Source: Acidobacteriota bacterium (GTDB taxonomy: Bacteria > Acidobacteriota > Terriglobia > Terriglobales > Acidobacteriaceae). Taken from it: 60,176 nt of DNA. The position numbers were made by a program, and so were the translations under genes. Where the stretch lies: contig QIAU01000141.1 of assembly GCA_003225055.1 (NCBI GenBank), positions 1-60,176 on the forward strand, in the 5' to 3' direction. A model generated the notes under the pieces. The model had not been told where the DNA came from. It searched no databases and was given only the letters and a program-made list of their open reading frames with translations. This document shows positions 22,338-26,903 of the stretch, piece by piece; within the stretch, counting starts at the first letter, position 1, and each line of letters opens with the position of its first letter.

Positions 22338-23777
22338 TCAACCGCGAAGCTTGGATTCTGCCAGAAACTTCTGGTCCCACTGCTTGATCATCGGCCACAT
22401 CTGTTTCAACGGACGCTTTAACCCTCTACCGAGCAGCACGGGCCCATTCTCCCAGGGATTCGTATACGGGATGTACAACGCCGCGGCCACCGTGACCTCG
22501 CGGGACCGCTGCGCGCTCCTTGGGGGGCGATCGCCCAAAAATGATCAGGAGCTCGCCAGAGTAATCCCGCGGTCCCCATAGCCAGTAACTCTGGTGATTG
22601 CCGATGGCTTTTGGCAATCCGCACTTTGGCCCAAGCCGATCGATCGCTCCCGCCTCGCCGAAGTTCTTGCCGAAGATGGCGGCTTTGGCGCAGTCCTCCG
22701 GCCGCGGGCTGTAACAGAGACGCGCCATGGCTGCGGTCATCTCCTCCCAGCCGAACTCCCAGGCATTACGATGCGACAAGCGCGCCCTCAGGTGACCTTT
22801 TTCAGAGGCCGGCACAGAGAAGGGAAGCTTCGACTGATAGCGCAGGTAATTCTCAACCGACAGCACAGGAACGGCAATCGGCAGCATTATGACGGTGACG
22901 GCCAAGATCAGGGCTACGAGAGCCGGCTTCACCCAGACCTGAGGTCTGCCGAACCTCTTCGATTGCCACAGCCGTCTCCGGCGAAAACCATGGGATAAAC
23001 CGGAGTCGCGTAATAGTCCTTGCCGTGAAGGACAACCAACGTCGCAAGCACAGCCATAAAAGCCCAGCCCAAGCCTGAAATCCTCGGCCCTCGCGTCCGA
23101 AAAGAAAATAGAACACTCCCGTCAGCCAGACCGGAAATGTCGCCGGAGTCACCAGGAAGATCTGGCGCCCGAGGTAATCCAAAGGCGCCCACTTCAATGT
23201 CGCGGCCGCTTGCCCGAATGTTGCGCATTAGCTCAACCAACGGCCCGTTGTGCTGAAGCTTCCAGATGAGATTGGGAAGAAAGATCAGCAAGGCAATTGG
23301 TCCGCCGATCCAGATCCCCTTGCTGGCAAAGACCCGCCGCTGCTCGGTCAGCAGCGGGCCGACGACAACGGCGAATCCGAACACTGCCATCGAGTACTTG
23401 TTCTCCAGCCCGATTCCGTACCGTACTGCAAACCACAGCCACAGCCTTTGCTCGCCCGTCTTGATGATCCGAAGTAGCAAGTAAGCGGATGGCGGACAGC
23501 GATGTCCCAAGGACGTGGCGGACGAACCAGGCAATGCATTATGAAAGAGCGCTATGAGCGAAGGTTGATCTACGTATCCCCAGGCGGGGCACTCGCCGCA
23601 GGCCATGTGATACAACTCGTCCCCGAAATAGCCGTGCGATTGCTGTCAGCAGATGCAACAGGAGCTTGGTTCCTGCCATGTACAGCACGAGCGCAGGTCC
23701 GCTGCTGAACCAGGGCTCCGATGGGCTGGTTTCGGCACCGCCTTGGCCGCAACTGCTTTTGGTGCTGTGGCACTCAT
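22338..23777 (-). pseudogene. Broken GT39-type (PMT/ArnT-like) glycosyltransferase
   Basis: Minus-strand pieces in different frames join to one protein: ALVLYMAGTKLLLHLL, then GYFGDELYHMACGECPAWGY and VDQPSLIALFHNALPG. These are followed by GLENKYSMAVFGFAVVVGPL, KWAPLDYLGRQIFLVTPATF, GKDYYATPVYPMVFAG and a C-terminal part ending LKQMWPMIKQWD. The ACGE-x-PAWGYVDQP loop is typical of membrane glycosyltransferases using polyprenyl-linked sugars. At least four frameshifts, and an apparent deletion just after the FHNALPG segment, show the gene is dead. Residue identity between breaks is still high, so decay is recent. Confidence 0.78.
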
Positions 23778-23822: not shown

Positions 23823-24404
23823 TCAGCGCTTCCTATTCGCTCCCTCTTTCCGCAGCGCCTCAAAGGTCATCTCTTGAGCGCGACTCCCTGTTTGGCTCTT
23901 CCAATCAAGAAAGAGGCTCGCGTAATTTTGCGTGATGTAACGATCCGGCGCAACGCCCAGCGCCCGGGCGGTTTGATCAATCCAACGCGGCGGGCCTTCG
24001 ATCTCGGCAAAGTTGCCGATCGGGGTTTCGTCGAGCACGACGCACCCGTTGCCATCATTCCACTCGGTGCGAAATTTCTCATAATGGAAACTCGGGTCGA
24101 ACCCAAGAGCGCGCAGGATGGCTTCCATTTCTCTTCCATTTTCGACGCGGGTTTCGGTTTCCACCCGTGTTTTATGACGGCCTCGACTGCCCTTAGCTTT
24201 ATGAGTCAAGACCCACTCCGGCCCAAATTTCCGCAATCGCAGCAGTTCCCCCCGACGCCGTAGGGGCTGGCCCGGGAGGTCGTATAGGGTGTTCATTTCG
24301 TGCGTGCGATGAGTTTTACGACGAAACCCCAATTTGCGGAGCTGAGCTGAAAGCGCCGGCAGATCTGCAGCGCGAAACTTGACTTCAACTTCTCTCGAGG
24401 ACAT
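23823..24404 (-). CDS. CYTH-domain protein (class IV adenylate cyclase/triphosphatase type)
   Basis: A 193-residue soluble protein. The N-terminal E-x-E-x-K signature is present as REVEVKFRAADLP. Further tunnel residues appear in NTLYDLPGQPLRRRGELLRL, LTHKAKGSRGRHKTRVETET, and VVLDETPIGNFAEIEGPPRW, where the acidic and basic residues bind metal and triphosphate. CYTH proteins split triphosphates or make cAMP; which applies here cannot be told. It lies downstream of the DedA-rhodanese gene on the same strand with a gap of about 65 nt. Confidence 0.88.
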   Translation of the reverse strand: MSSREVEVKFRAADLPALSAQLRKLGFRRKTHRTHEMNTLYDLPGQPLRRRGELLRLRKFGPEWVLTHKAKGSRGRHKTRVETETRVENGREMEAILRALGFDPSFHYEKFRTEWNDGNGCVVLDETPIGNFAEIEGPPRWIDQTARALGVAPDRYITQNYASLFLDWKSQTGSRAQEMTFEALRKEGANRKR

Positions 24405-24470: not shown

Positions 24471-25442
24471 CTAAGTAAAGGTTGGCAGTTTAACCATGTC
24501 GTCACGGGGTACGTTTTCCAGCGCTTGTCCGGCTTTCCGCCAGGCGCCGAGGCCACCGACAATAACGAAAGCATTGAATCCTTTTTCCCGCAGCAGATGC
24601 GCCACCCGGGCGCTGGTAGCTTCGCGCGCTCAAGTGCAGTAGACATAGATATCTTTGTCCTTGGGCAGAGCCTTCAGTTCCTCGGGCAGATTGTTGGGTT
24701 CGATGCGAATCGAGCCGCGAATACGATCGGCGCCAGCATCGTAGTAGCCATGGCTACGCACGTCGACGATCAGGATCTTAGTTACCCCTTCCGATTCAAG
24801 CTTGCGTGCCAATTCTCCCACTTGCACCCGGGGAACAACCTGGTAAAGGCGGTGTCTGCTAAACAGGTAAACACGGTAGGCAATAAACCCGATTAAGGCG
24901 CCCAGCACCACGAACTCGACTACGTGCTGGGCAGTTTGAAATCCATGGGTGATCGACGCGACAAAGTCACGGAAAACATACCCGACGGTGCCGTAGGCGA
25001 GCGTATAGAGAGCTGCGCCCGCAAGGTCGAACCAGAGAAACTGTTCGTATCGCATCTTCATGCTCCCCGCCAGAGGGGGCGCCATGGTATTGACGCCTGG
25101 AACGAATTTCGCCAGCAGTAGCGTCGCCTTGCCTCGTTTGTAGAACGATTCTGCCGAGCGCAGGATGCAGCTCTCCGGGTTGGCCGACACCTTGCACAGG
25201 AAGCCCAGCAGCGCCCAGCCCATGCAGCGGCCCAGAATGTAGAGCAGCGAGTCGCCGAGGGCCAGCGCGATCAAAGCCACCGCAAATACCATGGGAGCAC
25301 GCAGTGTGTGCGCGGCGGATGCGGCGCCGCCTGCTACCAGGGCGAGTGCCGCCGGCATGGGCAAGCCGATTGATTCTGCGAGCACTACCAGGAAGATGAC
25401 CAGGTATCCGTGATGCGCGATCAGTGAGACGAAGTCGCTCAT
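24471..25442 (-). CDS. DedA-rhodanese fusion with in-frame TGA; candidate selenoprotein
   Basis: Residues 1-200 form a DedA/VTT membrane domain: ESIGLPMPAALALVAGGAAS, FVPGVNTMAPPLAGSMKMRY, and several hydrophobic helices. Residues from about 205 form a rhodanese domain: ILIVDVRSHGYYDAGADRIR, then LPKDKDIYVYC269-T270. TGA at 24632-24630 follows as codon 271. In frame, translation continues AREATSARVAHLLREKGFNA, VIVGGLGAWRKAGQALENV to TAG at 24471, which completes the domain. Relatives I recall read YCTC-x2-EATSARVA, so TGA stands for Cys. A GC hairpin lies 17-31 nt beyond. Either selenocysteine or a recent nonsense mutation explains this; without readthrough the protein ends at residue 270. 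Confidence 0.7.
24599..24613 (-). promoter_or_regulatory. Possible bacterial SECIS hairpin after the in-frame TGA
   Basis: On the minus strand GCGCC-CGGGT-GGCGC forms a perfect 5-bp stem with a 5-nt loop. The loop starts 22 nt after the TGA and has G at its second position, within the usual spacing for bacterial SECIS elements. A weaker AGC/GCT pair could extend the stem outside. GC-rich coding DNA makes such hairpins by chance fairly often. Confidence 0.35.
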
Positions 25443-25907: not shown

Positions 25908-26903
25908 TCACTTCTCTCGTGCCACCACAAACTCAGGCGCCCAAAGCAAAGCGCGTTTAATTTCAGAGTCGGGGAACTGACAGACGGCCTTGCGTGCCGA
26001 TTCGGCATATTCCAAGGCACGGGCATTGGCGGCATCGAGCGATCCATAGCGGCTCAAGATATCCAGGATCTGGGGGTGGGTGACGCCGTTGAAAGCCCGA
26101 TCGTGGAGGACGGTCTCGATCCTCCTCCTTTCTTCCGCAGTGCAGCGATCGAGCGCATGAATGACCGACATCGTGACCTTGCCCTCGCGTAAATCGCTGG
26201 CCACCGGCTTACCCAAGATGGTTTCCGAGGCCGTCAAATCGAGCACGTCATCGACAATCTGAAAAGCCATTCCCAGATCGCGTCCGTACTGCCCCAATTT
26301 CTCTTCCTGGTCAGGCGTTGCCCCACCCAGGATTCCGCCCAGCCGCATGCAAACCGAAAACAGGCAAGCCGTCTTGCGATAGATGAGATCGAAATGCTCC
26401 TCGAGTGAGATCAGCTTGCCTAATTTCTCCATCTGCAGCAGTTCGCCCTCGACCATCTGCTGGGTGAGTTCGATCAAGGTGTCGAGGATCCGGAAATTTC
26501 GTTCCTGCACGGCAATCTTGAAGGCCTGCATGTAAAGCCAGTCGCCCGCCAGCACGCATTTCGAGTTGCCCCACTGGGTGTTGGCCGCAGGCCGTCCCCG
26601 CCGGGTCTTGGCTTCATCAATGATGTCGTCGTGAACCAGGGTGGCGGTGTGAATGATCTCAACTACCGCTCCTAGCCGGATGGCCCCGCGGCCTTCGTAG
26701 TTAAACAGCTTGGACGAGAGCAACACCAACGCCGGGCGAATCCGCTTTCCTCCTCCACCGCGCAGGTATTCCCCGATATCGGTAATTGCCGCCACATTGG
26801 AGACAGTGTCGCGCCCGAACTCGCGTTCCATGACCGCGAGGTCGTGGCGCAGCAACTCGAAAATTTCTTTCCCGTTAATGGCGGCTGGCGTGCTCAAGAT
26901 CAC
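25908..26903 (-). CDS. Polyprenyl diphosphate synthase (hepta/octaprenyl type)
   Basis: A trans-prenyltransferase of about 331 residues that builds the isoprenoid tail of quinones or related lipids. Both Asp-rich motifs are present: LVHDDIIDEAKTRRGRPA (first) and FQIVDDVLDLTASETILGKP (second). GGGGKRIRPALVLLSSKLF precedes them, and DLREGKVTMSVIHAL follows. The opening codon is GTG at 26903, but TTG at 26897 has a better-spaced AAGGA (8 nt). Chain length of the product cannot be read off by eye. It lies 55 nt downstream of yajQ on the same strand. Confidence 0.93.
   Translation of the reverse strand: MILSTPAAINGKEIFELLRHDLAVMEREFGRDTVSNVAAITDIGEYLRGGGGKRIRPALVLLSSKLFNYEGRGAIRLGAVVEIIHTATLVHDDIIDEAKTRRGRPAANTQWGNSKCVLAGDWLYMQAFKIAVQERNFRILDTLIELTQQMVEGELLQMEKLGKLISLEEHFDLIYRKTACLFSVCMRLGGILGGATPDQEEKLGQYGRDLGMAFQIVDDVLDLTASETILGKPVASDLREGKVTMSVIHALDRCTAEERRRIETVLHDRAFNGVTHPQILDILSRYGSLDAANARALEYAESARKAVCQFPDSEIKRALLWAPEFVVAREK

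Follow-up and report, generated by a model that had tools for sequence, protein, structure and literature searches.

A minus-strand gene in the window (the whole 60,176-nucleotide stretch of acidobacterial DNA analysed here) almost certainly encodes a membrane selenoprotein in which a DedA domain is fused to a rhodanese domain, and we are as good as sure that its in-frame TGA at residue 271 is recoded as selenocysteine (Sec). At the level of sequence, we demonstrate recoding signals, the Sec machinery, exchange between Sec and Cys, and selection on the part of the protein that is read through. CxU rhodanese domains were already known among selenoproteins; their fusion to a membrane domain, and the spread of that fusion, appear to be new. 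The gene has the following features.

24471..25442 (-): predicted DedA-rhodanese selenoprotein gene; 323 residues with the TGA read through; TAG stop
24978..25352 (-): DedA/VTT membrane domain, residues 31-155; PF09335, 46.7 bits (cut-off 33.9)
24534..24818 (-): rhodanese domain, residues 209-303; PF00581, 48.2 bits (cut-off 22.2)
24630..24632 (-): in-frame TGA, predicted Sec codon, residue 271; TGA/Cys alternation in homologues; aligns with GlpE Cys65
24636..24638 (-): Cys269, probable partner of Sec in C-T-U; Cys in 112/112 aligned copies among the matches listed
24599..24613 (-): bSECIS-like hairpin GCGCC-CGGGT-GGCGC; stem paired in 65/67 TGA copies; apical loop 21 nt after the TGA

The window frame starts with ATG at 25442-25440, ends with TAG at 24473-24471 and contains a single internal TGA at 24632-24630, so that the peptide around this codon reads YVYCT-U-AREATSARVAHLL. 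The initial annotation had placed a TGA at these positions, followed by the same frame up to the TAG at 24471, in a DedA-rhodanese fusion; we recovered both the coordinates and the read-through frame, and both domains scored above their Pfam cut-offs. When the window's genome was searched, the rhodanese match scored 52.1 bits over a stretch with one TGA. Because a basic stretch, YRVYLFSRHR, follows the last hydrophobic segment, the rhodanese domain probably lies on the cytoplasmic side according to the positive-inside rule. A single-sequence AlphaFold2 model of the rhodanese domain alone had a pLDDT of 54, too low for further use, and was discarded.

With the protein as read through the TGA, we searched 150 related genomes and obtained matches in 130 of them. 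Our codon counts are based on 112 aligned copies, comprising the 111 that span residue 271 among the matches listed, minus L162 (a TGA fragment of a genome already counted, excluded from all counts), plus L005 (a paralogue within the window's genome) and L054 (from the public contig 'Acidobacteriales bacterium 13_2_20CM_55_8'). Among the matches listed, the codon at residue 271 was TGA in 67 copies, TGC in 30, TGT in 13, TCT in one and CGC in one, and the TGA copies derive from 63 genomes, counting that of the window, plus the one named contig. Thus, TGA, TGC and TGT do alternate at this site, as the initial annotation had proposed to check, with one Ser and one Arg in addition; Cys, which it had named for relatives at this place, is encoded in 43/112 copies. 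The Cys two residues upstream was present in every copy among the matches listed (95/95 plus 17 further), and in the 28 of the 43 Cys copies for which the C-x-C motif was read, x was T or S throughout (28/28). The Ser and Arg codons belong to divergent second copies of approximately 31% identity in G041 and G066, namely L159 (TCT, YCSS) and L161 (CGC, YCNR), both of which keep the first Cys. G127 was tallied with one TGA, yet its codon at residue 271 is TGT; the TGA tallied is probably the terminal stop of the gene.

A tree of 92 copies, built with the trait columns masked and with 17 of the 112 copies (15 Cys copies, L159 and L161) left out, placed the closest Cys relative among the matches listed (L041, 63% identical) among TGA copies. 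On the best tree, the Sec/Cys label must change at least 10 times, and well-supported branches force 3 of these changes; shuffled labels needed 24.3 changes on average, and in 500 shuffles the count never fell as low as for the real label. Thus, the label follows descent yet has switched repeatedly.

The codon is tied to a local RNA structure. The initial annotation had described a 5-bp GC hairpin with a CGGGT loop beginning 17 nt after the TGA, and its first base is indeed the 17th. Among the matches listed, the full 5-bp stem (G-U pairs allowed) with a 5-nt loop at the exact offset was found in 65/67 TGA copies compared with 3/45 others, the loop pattern N(0-1)G[GU] in 67/67 compared with 4/45, and the two together in 65/67 compared with 1/45. 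One stem pair is missing in the TGA copies L077 and L112 and in a further TGA locus, L143. The available text of PMC13188914 limits bSECIS elements to a loop of 3-9 nt, a stem of 4-16 bp, a G in the first two loop positions, a UGA-to-loop distance of 16-37 nt and a minimum free energy (MFE) of at most -7.5 kcal/mol. With a 5-nt loop lying 21 nt beyond the last base of the UGA, a 5-bp stem, G as the second loop base and an MFE of -7.6 kcal/mol for the stem-loop alone (-15.6 for the first 43 bases), the window hairpin lies within all of these published limits, which bears out the likeness to bacterial SECIS elements that had been noted earlier; the MFE limit is itself non-discriminating, as 27/28 Cys copies tested also comply with it.

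In L060, L061 and L063, which belong to one family, the stem reads GCACC/GGTGC in place of GCGCC/GGCGC, a compensated exchange of G-C for A-U that also alters the peptide, SARVA becoming STRLV; the three loci count as a single event. In addition, we compared codon variation across 35 full-length close TGA copies, including the window's, at 71 codons whose residue is at least 90% conserved and four- or sixfold degenerate. The hairpin codons S277, A278, V280 and A281 ranked 1-4 of the 71, with an entropy of 0 compared with a median of 1.64, and showed no synonymous change among the 35, 32, 32 and 32 copies, respectively, that keep the residue.

The initial annotation had proposed a search for selA, selB, selC and selD and had named absence of selB or selC as grounds for giving up its reading. 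All four genes are present in the window's genome: selB (355.6 bits, cut-off 242.25), selA (528.4 bits summed over the frame, cut-off 267.9), selD (347.8 bits, cut-off 125) and selC, which has a TCA anticodon, is called tRNA-Sec by ARAGORN and scores 69.4 bits against Rfam RF01852. The SelD of this genome (L129, G000:C256:82082-83050, minus strand) has an in-frame TGA in GUASK and is probably itself a selenoprotein.

Across the 102 genomes in which the codon at residue 271 was read (105 of the 106 genomes over the selB cut-off being individually identifiable), selB exceeded its cut-off in 56/63 with a TGA copy compared with 11/39 without one; in genomes at least 90% complete, the corresponding counts were 49/51 and 11/31. 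The association gives a Fisher p of 6e-10, a statistic that ignores kinship. A kinship-aware test on the 92 copies in the tree offered three independent pairs on well-supported branches, too few for a verdict, of which about one agreed and the others showed no difference. In seven genomes with a TGA copy, no selB exceeded the cut-off, and two of these genomes (G030 and G077) are at least 90% complete. In five of the genomes without selB (G030, G077, G037, G071 and G038), we found a tRNA-Sec match of 68.7-76.1 bits with a TCA anticodon, called tRNA-SeC by ARAGORN; in G025 (75% complete) and G058 (85%), which carry a TGA copy, searches found neither selB nor tRNA-Sec. Among the 28 genomes with neither a TGA copy nor selB, 15 were searched for tRNA-Sec, and the three matches above the Rfam gathering score (50-51 bits) were all tRNA-Ser according to ARAGORN.

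To place residue 271 in the rhodanese fold, we built a profile from the rhodanese domains of the family and used hhalign to compare it with GlpE of E. coli and with five other rhodaneses of the window's genome. Residue 271 aligned with GlpE Cys65, which we take to be the catalytic nucleophile; the alignment was ungapped from residue 269 through the next helix, and the whole match had a probability of 99.7. In PDB 6mxv_A, a weak match for each of its domains, Sec271 fell on the Cys, and the other three of the four PDB alignments shown (Alr3790 chains) had a gap at residue 271. We infer that Sec271 replaces the rhodanese nucleophile and that C-T-U could form a short Cys-Sec bridge. This assignment is weakened by the greater constancy of Cys269 and by the Ser and Arg found at residue 271 in L159 and L161; in copies of that type, Cys269 may act as the nucleophile. 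The same two divergent copies led us to lower slightly our estimate for the chemistry as a whole.

In the mechanism we propose, SelB and tRNA-Sec, aided by the hairpin after the UGA, would insert selenocysteine at residue 271. The product would have a DedA/VTT domain in the membrane and, after it, a rhodanese that is probably cytoplasmic, with Sec271 at the nucleophile position and Cys269 of C-T-U as its likely partner. Sec271 would take up a sulfur atom, and Cys269 would release it as sulfide; the Cys-Sec bridge formed in this step would then be reset by a cellular reductant. We tentatively suggest, at somewhat below even confidence, that the protein acts as a membrane-tethered, Sec-based transferase or reductase of sulfane sulfur (persulfide).

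The DedA half departs from its characterized relatives. According to the available text of PMC10127716, Glu39, Asp51, Arg130 and Arg136 of E. coli YghB are essential in COG0586 proteins, a group that includes undecaprenyl-phosphate flippases. We counted these residues in 89 copies (35 close TGA copies and 54 distant ones, with 17 of the 112 left out). The VTT domain is common to both groups, and so mostly is Glu39, which is kept in 83/89 copies and in the window. Arg130 is replaced by Lys in 89/89, the window included, and the position of Arg136 holds Arg in 0/89 (Asn in the window). Where YghB has Asp51, the window protein has Ala; Asp occurs at this position in none of the 35 close copies and in none of the 45/54 distant copies with a residue shown, although an alignment gap lies nearby. 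Thus, the window protein keeps only Glu39 of the four residues, and because the residues given as essential in PMC10127716 are mostly changed, undecaprenyl-phosphate flipping by the DedA-rhodanese protein appears doubtful.

The recognized frames next to the gene encode a polyprenyl synthetase and a CYTH-domain protein.

25908..26903 (-): polyprenyl synthetase neighbour (context only); PF00348; adjoins the gene in 21/29 loci (L025-L053)
23823..24404 (-): CYTH-domain neighbour (context only); PF01928; adjoins the gene in 21/29 loci (L025-L053)

These counts refer to flanks of at most 1500 bases. Neither neighbour was found beside the gene in L060, L061 and L063 (another family), in the longer stretch L126, or in several loci of the window's own family, such as L049, L050 and L053 with their short flanks. 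We therefore rejected a lipid-phosphate role derived from synteny with the polyprenyl synthetase, as the neighbours were not found beside the gene in these loci and the DedA residues argue against it. Elsewhere in the window, a 228-residue PMT_2-type frame (22929-23615, minus strand) gives a partial model match and looks shortened.

The changed DedA residues also bear on an alternative in which the rhodanese serves as a redox sensor or gate for a DedA transporter and is not mainly a sulfur enzyme, or in which the pair handles selenium, with DedA for uptake and the rhodanese as Se carrier. We consider this rather unlikely, although the two domains are coupled in one chain and the Lys in place of YghB Arg130, together with the loss of Arg136, would allow for a DedA domain that carries another anion. 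A paper by Ledgham (2005) reportedly links, in its title, a DedA protein to selenite resistance, which would fit the handling of selenium. Against this, no selenium gene was present among the ten neighbouring frames scanned in the window, where the recognized neighbours are the polyprenyl synthetase and CYTH frames, and even these are not found beside the gene in L060, L061 and L063. Less likely still is a broader picture, an uncatalogued family of membrane selenoproteins across the phylum in which Sec rhodanese and changed DedA form one selenium-dependent inner-membrane machine, with a DedA domain that would no longer flip undecaprenyl phosphate and would instead move, or be gated by, sulfur or selenium species made or consumed at C-T-U. 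We retain the Sec-based sulfur transferase or reductase as our working model for the protein's chemistry.

Other readings concern the TGA itself, and selection on the sequence after it weighs on them. We compared the window gene with 34 other close TGA copies over codons 272-323, excluding the hairpin. Downstream of the TGA, the median pN was 0.154 and the median pS 0.665; pN/pS was below 1 in 34/34 comparisons, with a median of 0.22, which argues that the part after the TGA is a selected protein. Upstream, the median pN/pS was 0.36, a weaker conservation than downstream. Two TGA loci, L054 (3001-3902) and L064 (85-1013), have a frame break with residues missing in the DedA half and an intact Sec half; these breaks are either real or stem from assembly. 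Further damage in sister strains had been listed by the initial annotation as a point against Sec, and this much of it was found; the part after the TGA is otherwise intact and under selection.

UGA termination is expected when selenium or SelB is short. On this basis, the TGA could be a real regulatory stop, with a DedA protein carrying a cut rhodanese as the main product and another role for the hairpin, possibly alongside Sec insertion under selenium shortage. Such a stop is highly improbable as the main reading: conservation is stronger downstream of the TGA than upstream of it (median pN/pS 0.22 compared with 0.36), and the full domain is kept in Cys relatives. Opal-reading tRNA-Cys is known from elsewhere, and the many Cys codons at this site would suit reading of the UGA as Cys or Trp by such a tRNA, with no selenium involved. 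To this we assign next to no probability, as SelB, unlike a suppressor tRNA, needs a hairpin, and here one accompanies TGA and is mostly lacking with other codons, selA, selB, selC and selD are all present, and other TGA codons terminate frames (for example, in L027, L031 and L037). Finally, a single TGA in a draft assembly looks at first sight like a sequencing error or a Cys gene disrupted by a simple nonsense mutation, and L054 and L064 do have broken frames, but this pseudogene reading is in our view refuted by the conservation of TGA and hairpin, the same TGA recurring in 66 other copies, and by the window frame, which is intact to its normal end and under selection downstream of the codon. 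Recoding of the TGA as Sec thus stands as the preferred reading.

We then asked how the predicted protein relates to known systems. Its best NCBIfam match was NF041203 (rhodanese_LYCAU, 'rhodanese-related (seleno)protein'), a rhodanese domain with YC-x-U, in which Sec lies two residues after Cys, as in the YCTU of the window. NF041203 differs in being a 126-position domain model, whereas the window protein adds a fused DedA membrane domain, and the score of 73.7-78.1 bits is below the cut-off of 115; we did not assign the protein to this family, although the C-x-U motif fits. CxU rhodanese selenoproteins are catalogued as 'rhodanese-like form 3' in the available text of PMC13188914 and as 'COG0607 form 2' in that of PMC9312934. 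The terms DedA, VTT and PF09335 are absent from the main text of PMC13188914 as available, and the word DedA is absent from the main text of PMC9312934 and from the accessible parts of PMC12013277 and PMC5029168. A DedA-fused selenoprotein was not found in our main-text search of open-access papers. Cys-type fusions annotated as 'DedA family protein/thiosulfate sulfurtransferase GlpE' (COG0586 plus PF00581) share the architecture and have a C-x-C motif; they differ in having Cys for Sec and in mostly lacking the hairpin. TsoB (NF045694, rhodanese/DsbD fusion-like) is, from the accessible description, likewise a Sec rhodanese fusion named after a membrane protein, but has a UxxxxU motif with two Sec and DsbD in place of DedA, and NF045694 was not among the 14 NCBIfam matches of the window protein.

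The membrane-fused form extends the known set of CxU rhodanese selenoproteins. In the output of a gene finder that treats UGA as a stop, a gene of this kind would end at residue 270, and part of its active-site loop would be lost. Matched family members with Sec and with Cys provide a natural test of what Sec contributes to a rhodanese. The fusion also raises a testable question about the role of rhodanese-fused DedA proteins, whose link to undecaprenyl phosphate is called unclear in the available text of PMC10127716.

In a sample of the phylum, 41/197 genomes gave a match, some of them outside the class. Of seven loci from this sample in which the codon was read (L137-L143, not part of the 112 copies), four had TGA and the remaining three Cys; L137 and L139 come from genomes that are also in the counts above, and L138, L142 and L143, which lie outside the class, all have TGA. 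No match to the DedA-rhodanese protein was found in the phage collection.

The window's genome holds other rhodanese sequences with an in-frame TGA. L119 (G000:C162:2565-2801, plus strand) is a rhodanese stretch with one in-frame TGA at a different position (YCWGHDUHLSAK) and without the GCGCC/GGCGC hairpin; it may represent decay or another Sec form. L120 (G000:C18:43412-43759, plus strand) is a second rhodanese with YCTU and no DedA part in frame; it carries the hairpin GCGCC-AGTTT-GGCGC and scores 102.4 bits against NF041203, below the cut-off of 115.
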